DNA of 35,186 bases from Clostridia bacterium. GTDB taxonomy: Bacteria > Bacillota > Clostridia > UBA1381. The DNA lies in assembly GCA_017443895.1 (NCBI GenBank), contig JAFSXU010000045.1, forward strand, positions 1 to 35,186, written 5' to 3'. Of this stretch, positions 6,740 through 15,312 are shown piece after piece. The notes under the pieces are model-generated. The model worked only from the letters and a program-made list of their open reading frames with translations, was not told the origin of the DNA and did not search any database. A program made the position numbers and the translations under genes. Each line of letters opens with the position of its first letter. The first letter of the stretch is position 1.

Positions 6740-7714
6740 TTAGAAGCTATCCACCAAATTTATTGCAAGCTCCACACAAGCCTCCACATCGGACTTTGCC
6801 ACCATTTCAGACGGCGAATGAATATATCTTGACGGAACAGAAATTCCGCCTGTTTTTACGCCTGCACGGGTCAGATGTATTGCCCCTGCATCTGTTCCGC
6901 CGTCAGTCATAATCTCTAACTGATACGGAATTTTATTTTTCTTTGAAACCTCGCACATTAAGTTTCTTACGGTGCTGTCACAAAGTATGGACCTATCCAT
7001 AACCTTTATCGCCGCACCGTTACCCATTTTTACTGCCATTTTCGGTGCAGACGGCGTATCGCCCGTATCGGTTACATCAACCGCTATTGCATACTCGGGA
7101 TTAACCGAATATGCAGAGGTTTTTGCTCCCCTTAAGCCTACCTCCTCCTGAGCTGTGAACACGAAATACAGGTCGTTTTTATTCTTCTTTATCTTCTTTA
7201 GCGCCGATATTAAAATATAGCAGCCCACTCTGTTATCAAGCGCCTTTGATATGATACTTGTTTTGTTCTCGGTATAGTCGCCCACAAATGCTGCCCTGTC
7301 GCCAATCTGAACAGGAATTTTTTTTGTATCGGATATACCAATATCAATATAGAGCTTATTTATATCCGCCTTTTTTGAAAATTCCTCGTCCTCACTGCCT
7401 ATAACGCCTATAGTTCCGTCCTTAAAGCGAACTCTCCTGCCTACCAGGTCCTTTACATCAAGTCCGCCCACAGCGCCGAAACGGATAAATCCCAAATCGT
7501 CAATAAATGTTACGATTATGCCTATTTCGTCCATGTGTGCCGCAAGCATTACACGCTTACCGTTGCCCTTTTTATGCGCAATCAAGTTACCCATTGCATC
7601 GGTTGATATTTCATCACAGTATTTTTTTATCTCTTTTTCAATTACCGCTCTTATATCGCCCTCATCGCCCGATACACCGTCGGTTTGTGTAAGTTTCTTT
7701 AACAAATCTATCAT
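6740..7714 (-). CDS. M42-family aminopeptidase (first paralogue, intact site)
   Basis: 324-aa dinuclear-metal aminopeptidase of the TET/glutamyl aminopeptidase type. Members form dodecameric tetrahedra that trim peptides left by proteasome-like proteases. Metal and catalytic residues are all present: His60 and Asp62 (AAHMDEIG), Asp160 (KALDNRVG), catalytic Glu190 with ligand Glu191 (TAQEEVGLRGA), Asp213 (AVDVTD) and His299 (RYIHSP). There is no signal peptide. Its ATG overlaps the stop of the upstream paralogue (ATGA), so the two are co-translated. GGAGG lies 10 nt before the start. Specificity cannot be read from the sequence. Confidence 0.93.
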   Translation of the reverse strand: MIDLLKKLTQTDGVSGDEGDIRAVIEKEIKKYCDEISTDAMGNLIAHKKGNGKRVMLAAHMDEIGIIVTFIDDLGFIRFGAVGGLDVKDLVGRRVRFKDGTIGVIGSEDEEFSKKADINKLYIDIGISDTKKIPVQIGDRAAFVGDYTENKTSIISKALDNRVGCYILISALKKIKKNKNDLYFVFTAQEEVGLRGAKTSAYSVNPEYAIAVDVTDTGDTPSAPKMAVKMGNGAAIKVMDRSILCDSTVRNLMCEVSKKNKIPYQLEIMTDGGTDAGAIHLTRAGVKTGGISVPSRYIHSPSEMVAKSDVEACVELAINLVDSF

Positions 7715-8730
7715 ATGATAATATCCTCCAATCCGTGAGCAAACAGCACTGCCGTATCTCTCATCGCCTTTATATCACGCATATCCGCCATACTCTGCGG
7801 AGTATTCATATACCGTACAGGTATGCCCACACACGCCGTTTTAACACCGTCGGCACATCTGATAATTGTTCCTGCATCGCTCATACCGATAGAGCTTCGC
7901 TTTTTCTGTACGGGAATTTTCGCATCAGCTATTGCATTATACAGTTTATCGGTTAGTGTCTTATCGGGTATGGCGAATTTATCCATAAAATCAACACATA
8001 CGCCCCCGCCTAATTTTGCCGTTACCTCGTTTTCCTTTGTACCGTACATATCCGCAGACTCAAAAGCGTCAAGCACAAGTGCGGCATCTAATTTGAGTCC
8101 GTACCCTGCAACCGATGCGCCTCGCATTCCGACCTGCTTTTGTGCAGTGAAAACAAAGTAAATATTATCCTCATAGCTGTCCTTTACCATATCAAGAAGT
8201 ACATAACAGCCGACTCTTGCATCAAGCGCTTTTACGCTTATTTTTTGCCCTGCCTTTAGATACTCACTCTCAAAGGATATATAATCGCCTAAATTTACTT
8301 TTTTTAGTGCCTTTTCCTTTGACTTTGCACCAATGTCGATATATAAATCCTTTATCGCAACGGTGCTTTCTCTTTCGTCCTTTTTCTGAAGATGTATCGC
8401 TTTCATTCCGAGCACACCGTCTACGGTCTTGTTTATCTTAACACATTTTGAAACAATGTTTCTTGAATCAATATCCCCCACAGCTTTAAATTTTATAAAG
8501 CCGTTATCGGTAATATTACTTAAAATTAAGCCTACCTCGTCCATATGTGCCGTTAGCATTATTGTTTTTTTGCCCTTAACACCCTTTTTATATGCTATAA
8601 CATTTCCAAGACTGTCGATATTTATATCATCAACATAGTTTTTGATATGGTCGGTTATATAATCTCGTACATCCTGCTCCCTACCGCTTACGCCGGATAG
8701 CAGGCACAGCTCTTTTAAAATTTCAGCCAT
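7711..8730 (-). CDS. M42-family paralogue with degenerate active site (probable pseudoenzyme)
   Basis: 339 aa when started at ATG 8730, which follows AAGGAG; an upstream in-frame ATG at 8757 lacks a good site and would lengthen the overlap with the preceding gene. The fold-level match to its two neighbours is full length: AHMDEVG (His62, Asp64), KALDARVG (Asp170), Asp221 in LVLDAFE. However, the catalytic Glu-Glu pair is Lys198-Gln199 (TAQKQVGMRGA), and the last metal-binding His is Asn309 (RYMNTP). Three of the residues needed for hydrolysis are therefore lost while the frame is intact and translationally coupled. This suggests a selected non-catalytic or regulatory subunit, perhaps in mixed oligomers with the neighbours. 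That role is inference. Confidence 0.9.
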   Translation of the reverse strand: MAEILKELCLLSGVSGREQDVRDYITDHIKNYVDDINIDSLGNVIAYKKGVKGKKTIMLTAHMDEVGLILSNITDNGFIKFKAVGDIDSRNIVSKCVKINKTVDGVLGMKAIHLQKKDERESTVAIKDLYIDIGAKSKEKALKKVNLGDYISFESEYLKAGQKISVKALDARVGCYVLLDMVKDSYEDNIYFVFTAQKQVGMRGASVAGYGLKLDAALVLDAFESADMYGTKENEVTAKLGGGVCVDFMDKFAIPDKTLTDKLYNAIADAKIPVQKKRSSIGMSDAGTIIRCADGVKTACVGIPVRYMNTPQSMADMRDIKAMRDTAVLFAHGLEDIII

Positions 8731-9743
8731 GATGTATCTCCTTCCAATTCCTCGCAAAATGCCGTCAAAAGCTTGACCAAGGCCTTTACATCACTTATTG
8801 CAAGAGTTTCAACCGATGTGTGCATATATTTTAGCGGTATTGACAACAACGCCGTCGGGATACCGTTTCTTGCGTTTTGTATCTCCCACGCGTCCGTACC
8901 TGTTTCTCCGCCGTCTACCTCGGTTGCAAATTTTATATTATGCGCCTTTGCGGTTTTCATAAGCCTGTCCACCAATGCAGGGTGGATATTTGGACCTACC
9001 GAAACGGTTATACCCTCGCCCACAGGGAAGGCATTATACGCATTATCGGGGGTTATGCCGTGTGTTACATCTATTGCAATGGCAATATCGGGGTTTATGC
9101 CAAATGCCGATACCTTTGCGCCACGACAGCCAACCTCCTCCTGCACATGGGCGCAGGCGCAGACATTTACATTTAAGTCCTTACCCGATAATTTTTCCAT
9201 TGTCTTTATAAGTGCCGCAACGGACGCCCTGTCATCAAGGGTTTTACCCGAAAACTGTTTTTTGCCAAGCATTCCCACCGACTGCGGAAGCGTTATGCCG
9301 TCGCCTATCGAGATATATTTCTTTACACTTGATACACTCATGCCCGTATCAATCGCCATATCACGCATTTTTACGGCTTTTCCGCTCTCAATCAGGCAAT
9401 CGGGTTTTATCCCGATAACGCCCTTTATATCCTTTATGCCGTGTACCGTTACAACCGACGACGGTAAAATCCGTGTATCTATTCCGCCGACTGCGCCAAA
9501 GGTTATAAAACCCTCGTCTGTAATATCGGTTACGATAAGTCCTATCTCATCACAATGCGCCTCAATCATAACAGTAGGTGCATTGTTCTTATTACTCTCA
9601 CGCTTTGCAATTACACTGCCCAGTGCGTCAATCCTGACCTCGTCTGCATACGGCAGGAATTTATCACGGATACTTTCATTTATCCTGTATTCCGAGCCTG
9701 AAATTGCACGCATATCGCTTAGTTCTTTGATTAAATCTTTCAT
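8715..9743 (-). CDS. M42-family aminopeptidase (third paralogue, intact site)
   Basis: 342 aa. It has all expected residues: His63 and Asp65 (EAHCDEIG), Asp170 (KTLDDRAS), Glu202-Glu203 (VQEEVGCRGA), Asp225 (IAIDVTHG) and His308 (KYMHTS). It differs more from the other two paralogues than they do from each other (for example AHCDE and TLDDRAS). Its end overlaps the beginning of the next gene by 16 bp, and it starts 6 bp after murD. The three genes form one translationally linked set. An antisense open frame of about 418 codons runs over this gene and murD on the plus strand, but it is a composition shadow. Confidence 0.93.
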   Translation of the reverse strand: MKDLIKELSDMRAISGSEYRINESIRDKFLPYADEVRIDALGSVIAKRESNKNNAPTVMIEAHCDEIGLIVTDITDEGFITFGAVGGIDTRILPSSVVTVHGIKDIKGVIGIKPDCLIESGKAVKMRDMAIDTGMSVSSVKKYISIGDGITLPQSVGMLGKKQFSGKTLDDRASVAALIKTMEKLSGKDLNVNVCACAHVQEEVGCRGAKVSAFGINPDIAIAIDVTHGITPDNAYNAFPVGEGITVSVGPNIHPALVDRLMKTAKAHNIKFATEVDGGETGTDAWEIQNARNGIPTALLSIPLKYMHTSVETLAISDVKALVKLLTAFCEELEGDTSWLKF

Positions 9744-11480: not shown

Positions 11481-12623
11481 TCAGTCTACTTCGGCTACTA
11501 CCTTTGCACCTGCATCATATAGGTTAGAAACAACAAATATTACAAATGTCGTGTCGTCACTTGGCAGAAGGTTGAACGCAGTAAAATCATTTGAAGTGCT
11601 TGTATACTTTCTCTTTGTACCGTCAGACGCTGTAACCTTCCATGTTATATGGTTAATTGTTACCTGTGTTTTTTTTGTTTTATTGTTTATAGCCGTTACA
11701 AAGCCCGTTGCACCGCCGTCATGCTCATCTGCCGTAAATGCAAAGGTTTCGGTTGTTGCCTCGCCCGTTTCATCAGTATTTGATACCTGTATATTTTCGC
11801 CCTCAAATTCAGTTGCAATTACAGAGCCTGCACCCGATTCATCAAGAGCGTCAGCAACGGTCTGATTATTACCTGTATAGGTTACGACGGCATTTTCGCA
11901 GTTTGTAAACGCATTTGCACCTACGCTCTCTACACTTTCAGGAATTGAAACCGTTTCAAGATTTGTGCAATTTCCAAATGCAGATCCGCCAATACTTGTT
12001 ACAGTATTTGGAATTATGATTTCTTCTATCATTGATTCCGGCGAGCCGTTAAAAAAGGCACTGTTTGCTATAGAGGTAACTGTATCGGGAATTGTATAGG
12101 CTGTACCGTGGCTCCTTGGATAATATTTTAGCTCTGTCTGTGTCTTATTAAATAAAACGCCGTCAACCGAACTAAAATAAGGATTTTCTTCACTTACAGT
12201 TATGGTTTCAAGCTTGGGACAGTAACAAAACACACCGTAGACCTCATGCACATCGGTTCCAATGTCTTGGAGCGAATTATATCCAAAACCTTTCCCTATC
12301 GTTATCGTTTTAAGATTTAAACAAGATGGGCTGAAAATTACCTCCACACTGTCAGGAATGGTAAGGTGTTCAATAACATCAGACTTTAGCATCTGCACTG
12401 CGAATACAGGATAGCCACCAATTTCTGACGGAAGTCCAACCTCTGTGTTTGTGCCGGTATACCCTGTTATTACTGCAACCGTTGTATTTTCATCTAACTC
12501 ACCGGTTAGATATTTAAAATCGCCTTCAGTGTATGTGGCAGCCTTTGCGGTAATGGGTAATGCTAATGTGGTAAGTACCAATGCAGTTGAGATAATTATA
12601 CTCAACATTTTTTTAATTCTCAT
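11481..12623 (-). CDS. Secreted BspA-like leucine-rich-repeat protein
   Basis: 380 aa. A Sec signal peptide covers residues 1 to about 28 (KKMLSIIISTALVLTTLALP...AKAA, cut near AKA|ATYTE). LRR_5 (BspA/TpLRR) units of about 23 residues follow between residues 45 and 255, such as VITGYTGTNTEVGLPSEIGG, LTIPDSVEVIF, YTIPDTVTSIANSAF, IIIPNTVTSIGGSAF and VSIPESVESVGANAF. The C-terminal 120 residues form an unassigned beta-rich domain (FVTAINNKTKKTQVTINHITWKV). There is no LPXTG anchor, cell-wall-binding repeats or C-terminal membrane segment, so it is probably released or held non-covalently. BspA-type proteins often serve in adhesion; the ligand here is unknown. AAAGGA precedes the ATG. It is transcribed behind a long structured leader (12624-13052). 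Confidence 0.82.
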   Translation of the reverse strand: MRIKKMLSIIISTALVLTTLALPITAKAATYTEGDFKYLTGELDENTTVAVITGYTGTNTEVGLPSEIGGYPVFAVQMLKSDVIEHLTIPDSVEVIFSPSCLNLKTITIGKGFGYNSLQDIGTDVHEVYGVFCYCPKLETITVSEENPYFSSVDGVLFNKTQTELKYYPRSHGTAYTIPDTVTSIANSAFFNGSPESMIEEIIIPNTVTSIGGSAFGNCTNLETVSIPESVESVGANAFTNCENAVVTYTGNNQTVADALDESGAGSVIATEFEGENIQVSNTDETGEATTETFAFTADEHDGGATGFVTAINNKTKKTQVTINHITWKVTASDGTKRKYTSTSNDFTAFNLLPSDDTTFVIFVVSNLYDAGAKVVAEVD

Positions 12624-12749
12624 TTTTAATCATTTCCTTTCATTTTAGTAAAATTAAACGGTTTTGCCAAATTTTTGGGCTTATGGCAAGCCAATCCTCC
12701 TCCCCTTTTAATCTCACTGTTAAAGAAAATGTATAATACCGTATGAAAT
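12624..12749 (-). other. Leader segment between attenuator-like terminator and LRR gene
   Basis: 126 bp between the terminator at 12750-12789 and the LRR protein ATG. It holds a purine-rich GGGGAGGAGGATT and a small hairpin TTGCCA...TGGCAA (about 12662-12687 on the plus map) before the ribosome site AAAGGA. No convincing separate promoter is seen, which favours transcription from 13024-13052 through the leader. A weak TATTAT/TATACAT stretch near 12730-12738 has no matching -35. Confidence 0.4.
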
Positions 12750-12789
12750 AAAAAAGCGTGGCACATTGATATGAAAATCCGCACCACGC
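12750..12789 (-). terminator. Intrinsic terminator inside the LRR-gene leader (attenuator candidate)
   Basis: Minus strand: GCGTGG (12784-12789) pairs with CCACGC (12756-12761), extended by a few wobble pairs, followed by six T (12750-12755). The 3' arm is also complementary to 12806-12819, so an antiterminator can compete with it. No gene ends just upstream on this strand, so it either ends a roughly 265-nt RNA or attenuates the LRR gene. Confidence 0.75.
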
Positions 12790-12819
12790 ATAAAATGCAG
12801 CTTCAATCAATGTTACCAC
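12758..12819 (-). promoter_or_regulatory. Predicted antiterminator helix
   Basis: Minus strand GTGG-UA-ACATTGAT (12819-12806) pairs with ATCAATGT-G-CCAC (12770-12758): 12 Watson-Crick pairs around one small internal loop. It uses the 3' arm of the terminator and also the GTGGT of the aptamer-like closing stem, so the three helices exclude one another. Confidence 0.55.
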
Positions 12820-13017
12820 ACATTTTTTATTTTGAATATTTATATGCTACGCCAAAAAAAGAAGCTTTTAAATATAATTTATGAAGCTGTATTTTTACAA
12901 AAAAATACCACTCCTTATATTTTGGCATAACTCAAAAGAAATATTCATAAAATTAAATTGAATATTCTCGCTTCTAAATAACCGATATTAACATTTCAAA
13001 ATAAAAAATAATGTGGT
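12758..13017 (-). ncRNA. Structured leader RNA, possible riboswitch/attenuator of unknown class
   Basis: Transcript predicted to start near 13017. Its first 24 or so bases (13017 down to about 12993) pair with 12835-12814: ACCACA with TGTGGT, a small internal loop, then about 15 further pairs, closing a domain of about 200 nt. Inside are a hairpin AGAATATTCA/TGAATATTTCT (about 12968-12938), a helix ATGCCAAAA/TTTTTTGGCGTAGCAT, a GTATTTTT/AAAAATAC hairpin and a GAAGC/GCTTC hairpin. The closing stem's 3' strand (GTGGTA) is also the beginning of the antiterminator strand. The whole is very A+T-rich. It does not match T-box, c-di-GMP or other riboswitch consensus motifs that I know. A MITE with long terminal inverted repeats is the main alternative. 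Confidence 0.5.
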
Positions 13018-13023
13018 AGAATA

Positions 13024-13052
13024 ATTGTAACACTCAAGGAATAAAAAGTCAA
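13024..13052 (-). promoter_or_regulatory. Strong sigma-A promoter of the leader RNA/LRR gene
   Basis: Minus strand TTGACT (13047-13052), a 17-bp spacer and TACAAT (13024-13029). The predicted start near 13017 coincides with the first base of the long closing stem. It lies about 400 bp from the LRR gene start. Confidence 0.85.
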
Positions 13053-13170: not shown

Positions 13171-15312
13171 TTACTCAGCAGGTGTTTCCTCTGCAGGTGC
13201 CTCCTCTACAGGAGCCTCCTCTGCAGGTGTTTCCTCTGCTGCAGGTGCCTCCTCTGCAGGTGTTTCCTCTGCTGCAGGTGCCTCCTCTACAGGTGTTTCC
13301 TCAGCAGGAGCTTCCTCTGCTACTTCTTCCTCTACCTCGATAGGCTCTTCAACCTCTACCTCGGGGTCGGTTGAATAAACAAGAGTTTCACCCTCCTGTA
13401 CTTCTTCCTCTGCAGGGGCAACCTCCTCCTCTACAGGAATTAAAGCACGCATACTTAATGATATTTTCTTATTATCCCAGTCAATATCTGTAATCTTTGC
13501 CTCAACTGTATCGCCGATTGACAATACATCCTCAGGCTTCTCAATTCTTCTGTTTGCAATCTGAGAAATGTGAATTAAACCGTCAACATTCGGGATAATC
13601 TGCGCAAATGCACCGAATGGCATAATTCTTACAATCTTAACCTCAACTGTATCGCCTACATTTAATGTGTTCTGTGCGATAGTCCAAGGGTTGTCCTCAG
13701 CCTTCTTATAGCCCAAGGAAATCTTTTTCTTTTCCTCGTCGATATCCTTTATATAAACCTCAAGAGTGTCGCCCTCTTTAACAACCTCTGACGGATGCTT
13801 AATCTTGTTCCATGACAGCTCGCTTATATGAACAAGTCCGTCAACACCGCCTAAGTCAACAAATGCACCAAATGATGTAAGTGACTTAACTGCGCCCGTA
13901 TAAACCTTATCAAGAGCAACCTCTGACCAGAATTTGTCTTCCTTTTCTTTTCTCGCCTCGTCCAAGAGAACACGAACCGAGCCTACAACTCGTCTTCTTC
14001 TCTCGTCAAGCTCAATCAATCTTAATTTTACATCTTGTCCAACAAGAGTCTGAAGGTCCTGTACAAATTTTTCAGCAGCCTGACGAGCAGGAATGAATAC
14101 CTGGCTTCCATCACACAAAGCGATTACGCCGCCCTTTACTGCCTTAATAATCTTGCCATCGAGGACTTTCTTCTCTTCGTAAGCCGCTTTGATTTTGTTC
14201 CAGCTTTCCATTGCTACCAATTTCTTTCTTGACAGCACTACCTTTCCCTCTGCGTCGTTTACACCAACAACGTAGACCTTGATTTCATCGCCTTCTTTTA
14301 CAACATCAGACGGCTTAAGTGTAGGATCATCTGTTATCTGGTCCGCTGCAAGTTGGCCGTTATACTTGAAACCGCCTAAATCGACGATTACCTCGTTATT
14401 GCGTACTTCTACAACAGTACCGTCAACGATGTCTCCATTGTTGAGAGTTCGAATGCCGGACTTCTCAAAAAGTTCTGCAAAGCTCTCTTCAGTTTGTAAG
14501 TTTTCACTCATAGCCTTTACTACCTCCTCGATAATACCACCGGGCGTTGATGCTCCGGCAGTAATACCTATTTTATTATACCTTTCTTTCGGCAAATCCG
14601 CCGCTGTTTCAACAAGATAAGTATTGGGACAGTTATTCTTTGCTATCTCGAACAGTTTTTGCGTGTTAGATGACTCCTTGCCACCTATCACAATCATCAT
14701 GTCCGATTCCCTCGAAAGACTATCCGCCTCTTTCTGCCTATCTCTTGTCGCAATACATATTGTATCAAATATTATACTACTTTTGCAAGTTTTTTTTATA
14801 TTTTGTACAATTTTACCAAAAATTTCCCTGTTTATTGTTGTTTGTGCTACAACGCATACGCAAAAATCAGACAAATCCTCGTCTATTTCACCATTTTTGT
14901 TGTAAACTATATATGCGCTGTCATTGCACCAGCCGTTAATTCCTATTACTTCAGGGTGATTTTTATCGCCGACAATTACAATTTTATAGCCATTTTTATA
15001 ATGCTCCTCGACAATTTTATGTATCTTTTTTACCATGGGACAGGTTAAATCCCTGTAATCCCGCCCCTCAAGCTCCTCGTATACCCTCTTCCCAACACCG
15101 TGGGCACGGATTATTACCTTGCAATCTTCGGGAATTTGAGAAACGGTATCATAGGCAAATACGCCCTTAGACTCAAGATCGGCTATCATTTGCGGATTGT
15201 GTATTACAGGGCCTAAGGTTGCAATTCTGCCTTTTAAAAGCTCCTCATACACTCCGTCAACCGCTCTCTTTACACCGTAGCAAAAGCCTGCCGTTTTTGC
15301 AAGTTTAACCAT
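13171..15312 (-). CDS. ispH: Fusion: HMBPP reductase (IspH) and ribosomal protein S1
   Basis: 713 aa, two enzymes' worth in one frame. Residues 1-265 are IspH, the [4Fe-4S] enzyme that makes IPP and DMAPP from HMBPP. The cluster cysteines are Cys11 (AGFCYGVKRA), Cys91 (LTCPMV) and Cys186 (DTICIAT); His39, His71 and Glu121 (HPEV) are also present. Residues about 291-363, 381-450, 468-536 and 551-623 are four S1 RNA-binding domains; the last two are most canonical (FGAFVDLGGVDGLVHISELSW). Residues 624-713 are an acidic tail of EEAPAEETPAEE-like repeats. This fusion is known from many Clostridia. GGAGG precedes the ATG; it is the last gene of a nine-gene run. How stress on isoprenoid or Fe-S supply affects the ribosomal half is unknown. 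Confidence 0.95.
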   Translation of the reverse strand: MVKLAKTAGFCYGVKRAVDGVYEELLKGRIATLGPVIHNPQMIADLESKGVFAYDTVSQIPEDCKVIIRAHGVGKRVYEELEGRDYRDLTCPMVKKIHKIVEEHYKNGYKIVIVGDKNHPEVIGINGWCNDSAYIVYNKNGEIDEDLSDFCVCVVAQTTINREIFGKIVQNIKKTCKSSIIFDTICIATRDRQKEADSLSRESDMMIVIGGKESSNTQKLFEIAKNNCPNTYLVETAADLPKERYNKIGITAGASTPGGIIEEVVKAMSENLQTEESFAELFEKSGIRTLNNGDIVDGTVVEVRNNEVIVDLGGFKYNGQLAADQITDDPTLKPSDVVKEGDEIKVYVVGVNDAEGKVVLSRKKLVAMESWNKIKAAYEEKKVLDGKIIKAVKGGVIALCDGSQVFIPARQAAEKFVQDLQTLVGQDVKLRLIELDERRRRVVGSVRVLLDEARKEKEDKFWSEVALDKVYTGAVKSLTSFGAFVDLGGVDGLVHISELSWNKIKHPSEVVKEGDTLEVYIKDIDEEKKKISLGYKKAEDNPWTIAQNTLNVGDTVEVKIVRIMPFGAFAQIIPNVDGLIHISQIANRRIEKPEDVLSIGDTVEAKITDIDWDNKKISLSMRALIPVEEEVAPAEEEVQEGETLVYSTDPEVEVEEPIEVEEEVAEEAPAEETPVEEAPAAEETPAEEAPAAEETPAEEAPVEEAPAEETPAE

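Follow-up and report, generated by a model that had tools for sequence, protein, structure and literature searches.

A structured 269 nt RNA leader precedes the gene for a secreted BspA-type LRR protein in the window, the whole 35,186-nucleotide stretch of Clostridia DNA analysed here, and comparison with its relatives leads us to regard it, with good though incomplete confidence and without any experiment, as a cis-acting transcription attenuator (an OFF switch) of an unreported riboswitch-like class. The leader class is real, widespread and apparently unreported; that the leader works as a transcription attenuator is likely, and its being a riboswitch for a small molecule or ion is plausible, ligand binding being inferred. 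The leader and the elements around it are arranged in the window as follows.

12750 to 13018, minus strand: whole leader RNA, 269 nt, from the start inferred from promoter spacing (~13018) to the terminator U-tract
13024 to 13052, minus strand: sigma-A type promoter, TTGACT (13052-13047), 17 nt, TACAAT (13029-13024)
12995 to 13018, minus strand: P1 5' strand, UACCACAU..., from the fold and own-versus-cross duplex energy
12814 to 12837, minus strand: P1 3' strand, ...AUGUGUGGUA, from the fold and own-versus-cross duplex energy
12940 to 12966, minus strand: P2 hairpin, 12966-12959 with 12947-12940, GAAUAUUC type, read from the sequence
12846 to 12931, minus strand: P3, 12931-12920 with 12857-12846, enclosing P4, from the fold and co-evolution
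12889 to 12908, minus strand: P4 hairpin, 12908-12901 with 12896-12889
12882 to 12889, minus strand: pseudoknot 5' strand, CAGCUUCA, in the P3 interior just after P4
12798 to 12805, minus strand: pseudoknot 3' strand, UGAAGCUG, part of the toggle strand, just 3' of P1
12763 to 12813, minus strand: antiterminator hairpin, toggle strand with the terminator 5' half and loop, -17.5 kcal/mol
12750 to 12789, minus strand: intrinsic terminator, GCGUGG (12789-12784) with CCACGC (12761-12756), then U6 (12755-12750)
12664 to 12704, minus strand: second conserved element, SD-like GGGGAGGAGG then an H-type pseudoknot (GGCUU/AAGCC, GCCA/UGGC)
11481 to 12623, minus strand: regulated gene, secreted BspA-type LRR protein of 380 aa (LRR_5, E 7.7e-17) with a signal-peptide-like N terminus

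The original prediction, drawn from the letters of this DNA alone, had placed here a promoter (TTGACT-17-TACAAT) with its start at a long closing stem, an intrinsic terminator followed by six T, and an antiterminator formed by complementarity of GTGGTAACATTGAT (12819-12806) to ATCAATGTGCCAC (12770-12758, minus strand), and each of these is present in the sequence; the closing stem is P1, whose 5' strand, from 13018, is paired with a 3' strand that ends at 12814, the start itself being inferred rather than mapped. The window -10 box is of the extended TG type. The segment 13020-12748 folds at -75.5 kcal/mol, 27.7 lower than its dinucleotide shuffles (-47.8 +/- 4.35, z -6.4), none of 200 of which was as stable. 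A weak promoter-like sequence, TTGGCA-17-TAAAAT (12670-12642, minus strand), lies after the terminator just before the LRR start codon and overlaps the second pseudoknot; it bears on the alternative, named with the original prediction, of a later promoter that by itself drives the LRR gene, and counts to that extent against the attenuator reading. The gene just upstream of the leader (13171-15312, minus strand) encodes an IspH (LytB) and S1-domain fusion, with a long C-terminal repeat rich in E, P and A (EETPAEEAPAE), and has a terminator-like hairpin at 13149-13113, and three M42-family aminopeptidase genes stand in a row elsewhere in the window (6740-9743, minus strand).

The layout of the leader is not due to chance, because homologues with the same layout are present in many genomes. 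A DNA search found three further places in the window's own genome that match the 3' part, and relatives give many more; the copies are 74-86% alike over the shared part and covary, and their flanks are diverse and unrelated. In 27 aligned copies the shared unit consists of the -10 box, TACCACAT, a variable domain with UUUGUAAAAAYGCAGGCUU, AAUGUGUGGUAACAU, the toggle (AAAUCYAAGCCGCG) and the terminator. Scanning genome contigs by pattern retrieved 67 stretches, nearly all from Clostridia MAGs whose source was the gut of rabbit, goat, mouse and other hosts. A covariance model (R1) identified, at E<0.01, 11 copies in the genome that the window comes from; of 70 genomes from the family, 48 contain members, and the richest, that of the named isolate Lachnospiraceae bacterium MD329, has about 20. 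The model's weaker matches, inspected by eye, are real members in which P1 is fully different yet compensated, e.g. TGCAACACACTTAA with TTGAGTGTGTTGCA. At E<=1e-4 a second model (R2), built from 75 matches, reaches by our count 76 of 391 Clostridia genomes in 46 of 220 genera and 17 families, with up to 12 copies per genome in this survey; at 1e-5 it passes 61 of the 391 and matches none of ~383 genomes belonging to the phylum's other classes, nor the 14 other Clostridia in that sample. The E-values of both models are rough, the full anatomy has been read in only some distant families, and the weakest class-wide matches may include chance ones. Removal of duplicates leaves 98 distinct copies, which have in common the promoter, P1, the P4 motif, the toggle and the terminator. 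Tandem copies a few hundred bases apart are seen in L169 (1030-1097 and 1501-1570, each with its own promoter), L051 (2530 and 2903) and L100 (793 and 1299).

Nearly every copy has its own promoter and terminator, and the uridine tract is found in essentially all members. In 84 of 95 members exactly 5 nt separate the -10 box from the P1 5' strand, and transcription should therefore begin at P1, an inference from this constant spacing. Despite its likeness to the P1 3' strand, the extended -10 (TGTGGTATAAT) is taken as promoter sequence, since it varies little where P1 differs. Leader length varies (median 246 nt), P2 is present in many, not all, members, and many bases outside helices are strictly conserved in the P4 loop (family consensus UUUGunAAAAA) and after P1, while the strand after P4 (GGCUUUNNNN) can pair as a pseudoknot with the strand just after P1 (NNNNAAAGCC). 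Closed upstream ORFs that have a ribosome site are rare, occurring in only 2 of 70 leaders, and ribosome-mediated attenuation through a leader peptide was rejected on this ground.

Covariation was scanned over all column pairs of 70 non-redundant members, with the null simulated along the tree. The seven highest ranks are all P1 or terminator pairs and the eighth is an antiterminator pair, so that the check proposed with the original prediction is passed: there are homologous leaders in which P1, terminator and antiterminator covary. P1 position 2 is A-T in 56 members and G-C in 14, paired in 70/70, and position 4, likewise paired in all, is C-G in 60, T-A in 8, A-T in one and G-C in one; one terminator pair shows five pair types and is always paired. 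Formal E-values under the tree null are modest (~0.08 for the top three pairs, up to 0.7 for the next two) because the null is small and conservative. In a test that needs no alignment, the duplex energy of each segment paired to its own partner was set against that with the partners of other members. P1 (own -23.4, cross -12.1 kcal/mol) and P3 (own -19.2, cross -7.4) did better with their own partner in 70/70 members each, the terminator in 66/70, the antiterminator hairpin (own -17.2, cross -13.6) in 65/70, P4 in 55/70 and the pseudoknot in 55/70 (46/70 with a shorter toggle segment); three unrelated segment pairs from the same sequences, serving as negative controls, gave 36/70, 38/70 and 39/70. 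The p-values of this test ignore relatedness, and the P1 5' segment was found partly by complementarity, which could favour P1, although the constant spacing to the -10 box argues for only a small bias. As far as comparison of sequences can do so, these data demonstrate the helices, their conservation and the alternative pairings, together with the gene association described below.

The toggle strand has exclusive pairings, pseudoknot versus antiterminator and antiterminator versus terminator, judged from co-evolution and complementarity and not from probing. The original prediction had taken closing stem, antiterminator and terminator to be mutually exclusive, which stands for the last two and only partly for P1, as the minimum-energy fold of the window leader contains P1 and the core antiterminator hairpin (12813-12763) together; P1 alone is, on this predicted fold, not decisive for switching in the window. 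The longer antiterminator proposed at the same time, which draws on the P1 3' strand, remains possible, with less clear co-evolution behind it (P1 3' strand with terminator 3' strand, own better in 56/70, and in 10/14 among P1 variants), and strict exclusivity of P1 with the antiterminator was rejected on both counts. Judged from pairing, it is the pseudoknot (12889-12882 with 12805-12798), absent from that earlier account, whose exclusivity with the antiterminator is clearest.

Of 84 testable copies, 74 are followed by a gene on the same strand, compared with 40 of 84 on the mirror side, and a simple hydrophobicity rule assigns a signal-peptide-like or lipoprotein-like N terminus to 60 of 94 downstream ORFs. 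Among downstream products 100 aa or longer, 55 of 64 (86%) look secreted versus 76 of 485 (16%) for other ORFs of the same loci, a 33-fold enrichment in odds. The LRR gene, seen at the outset as an odd context for such a leader, does have a secreted product, but this is the rule rather than the exception, since secreted targets stand before most members. Pfam searches of 68 downstream proteins gave LRR_5 (18), Cu_amine_oxidN1 (5), CHAP (4), DUF5067 and DUF6273 (3 each), and SLH and ricin-type lectin (2 each); the remaining targets include two families of small soluble proteins, and after a few copies repeats follow rather than a gene directly. One soluble family, of ~45 aa (MENYKEMYIKLFDAISEAIETLQ...), is a recurrent partner (L044:3444-3575, L046:2064-2186, L147, L115, L122, L161, L169:1590-1766). 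The other, of ~77-86 aa (MELKLELL...FDAIEEIVNIFEKY...RHDF), lies directly after the RNA in different genomes (L162:1610-1840, L165:1592-1849, L139:1253-1483) and has no secretion signal; searched against PHROGs, the small downstream proteins returned weak matches only. The second conserved element sits between terminator and start codon in many secreted-gene loci (the window, L143, L060, L040, L041, L128, L062), its family form being an SD-like GGAAAGGAG, a few bases and an H-type pseudoknot (CGGCU/AGCCG with CCGCAA/UUGCGG type) with compensatory changes; a strict pattern for it hits two places only in the 70 family genomes, both beside the main element.

The leader meets the criteria of a riboswitch in being a promoter-bearing 5' leader of same-strand genes, in having a covarying structured domain, and in coupling an exclusive terminator and antiterminator to that domain; the reading of the layout as an OFF riboswitch, made in the original prediction, is supported, ligand binding remaining an inference. 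In the mechanism we propose RNA polymerase would start at the first base of P1, at the inferred start site, and the leader would fold into P1, P3 and P4, with the strand 3' of P4 able to form the pseudoknot just 3' of P1. A toggle strand held by the pseudoknot would let the terminator form, leaving the secreted-protein gene off; a free toggle strand would pair with the terminator 5' half once this is made, creating the antiterminator, and the gene would be read. Read-through is the expected default because the mean energies are nearly balanced (antiterminator hairpin -17.1, terminator -16.1 kcal/mol) and the antiterminator can form before the terminator 3' half is made; stabilisation of the pseudoknotted domain would cause termination, and the leader would therefore be an OFF switch, a direction that is inferred. 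A ligand may provide the OFF signal by stabilising the pseudoknotted domain, and it would probably be a small molecule or ion that reports general cell state; both its existence and its nature are inferred.

The trigger need not be a small molecule; it could also be a protein or another RNA. Control of the same attenuator by a protein, such as an antiterminator or RNA-binding regulator, would suit targets that form a functional group, the secreted proteins, as for a global regulator, and also the long leader of variable length, but the many strictly conserved bases outside the helices, in the P4 loop and following P1, and the pseudoknot, are more typical of small-molecule aptamers, and we consider a protein trigger unlikely without setting it aside.

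The leader was also compared with known families. Rfam 15 (4227 models, gathering score) has no match over the element in the window, and none over it in member loci including L043, L047, L134, L135, L137-L139, L162-L167, L169 and L172-L183; nor does a permissive threshold give any, the best weak matches, SpF25 and MIR844, being chance. The leader was assigned from the start to an unknown class lacking a T-box or c-di-GMP consensus, which agrees with the absence of any Rfam model for it and of T-box, c-di-GMP-I and c-di-GMP-II matches. An RT-14 RNA match (59.5 bits) at L167:2395-2571, plus strand, is away from the element. Terminator-type OFF riboswitches are similar in their 5' leader position, closing P1, pseudoknotted domain, toggle strand between sensor and antiterminator, and intrinsic terminator, whereas the present family has neither a known ligand nor an Rfam riboswitch match, and targets secreted proteins rather than one pathway. 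T-box leaders are also long Clostridia leaders with terminator and antiterminator, but their model does not match here and the downstream genes are not amino-acid related. The trpB motif, one of the strong orphan riboswitch candidates of recent surveys (PMC11109978), likewise has its antiterminator on the right shoulder of P1, then an intrinsic terminator, and has varied downstream genes, but mostly amino-acid transporter-like ones; the main text of that report contains no mention of secreted proteins, signal peptides or surface genes. In the literature searched no riboswitch upstream of LRR or secreted proteins was found, nor the core sequence in print; the searchable papers on orphan candidates describe no such leader, and an unnamed entry in their supplementary alignments is not excluded.

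The c-di-GMP-I and -II riboswitches (RF01051, RF01786) are likewise multi-copy in Clostridia, where they control surface and adhesion functions (PMC6366702), and the leader might be a divergent form of such a known second-messenger riboswitch. The regulated genes are of a similar kind to those under c-di-GMP switches (PMC6366702), and GGDEF proteins are encoded in 10 of 12 examined RNA-carrying genomes, which is suggestive at best. However, the fold is different, neither covariance model matches any tested member, and genuine c-di-GMP-I switches coexist with the RNA in some of these genomes (the window's genome has no RF01051 match), while G338, a well covered genome in which the RNA has 11 copies, lacks any GGDEF match at E 1e-10. 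The data neither establish nor rule out a link to c-di-GMP, and a divergent riboswitch of this kind seems to us improbable.

A stand-alone, trans-acting small RNA of ~265 nt, to which the downstream gene would be incidental, is consistent with a promoter and terminator in nearly every copy and with the repeats that come after some before any gene, yet it accounts neither for a same-strand gene within reach in 74 of 84 cases nor for the enrichment of secreted proteins, and a co-evolving antiterminator would be purposeless in a constitutive RNA; we hold this to be very improbable. A repeat or MITE that happens to fold, suggested by multiple copies per genome (up to 20), is held to be highly improbable given compensatory P1 changes among 70 members from many genera, a promoter within the unit at conserved spacing, positions upstream of same-strand genes, diverse flanks, and no copy on phage or plasmid records or viral contigs; the copies do not look like the MITE that would have refuted the original prediction, with no systematic search made for target duplications. 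Exact-pattern scans of viral contigs and blastn against plasmids and phages gave no copy, and a phage or plasmid origin was dropped.

With a cis-acting attenuator as the preferred reading, it can be advanced only tentatively that this widespread unreported class senses one common signal (a second messenger, an ion, or a host or gut metabolite) and, placed at the promoter, is a global OFF switch of the secreted and surface proteome of many gut Clostridia; the regulated genes do not name a ligand. If true, some 1 in 6 to 1 in 5 of the Clostridia genomes sampled would carry an unlisted regulatory RNA class, largely dedicated to secreted proteins (BspA-type LRR, stalk-domain and CHAP-domain proteins, and lipoproteins). 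The class is testable now, because the genome with about 20 copies belongs to an isolate, MD329. It would provide a handle on surface changes in uncultured gut Clostridia, and its ligand would reveal a signal used by them.
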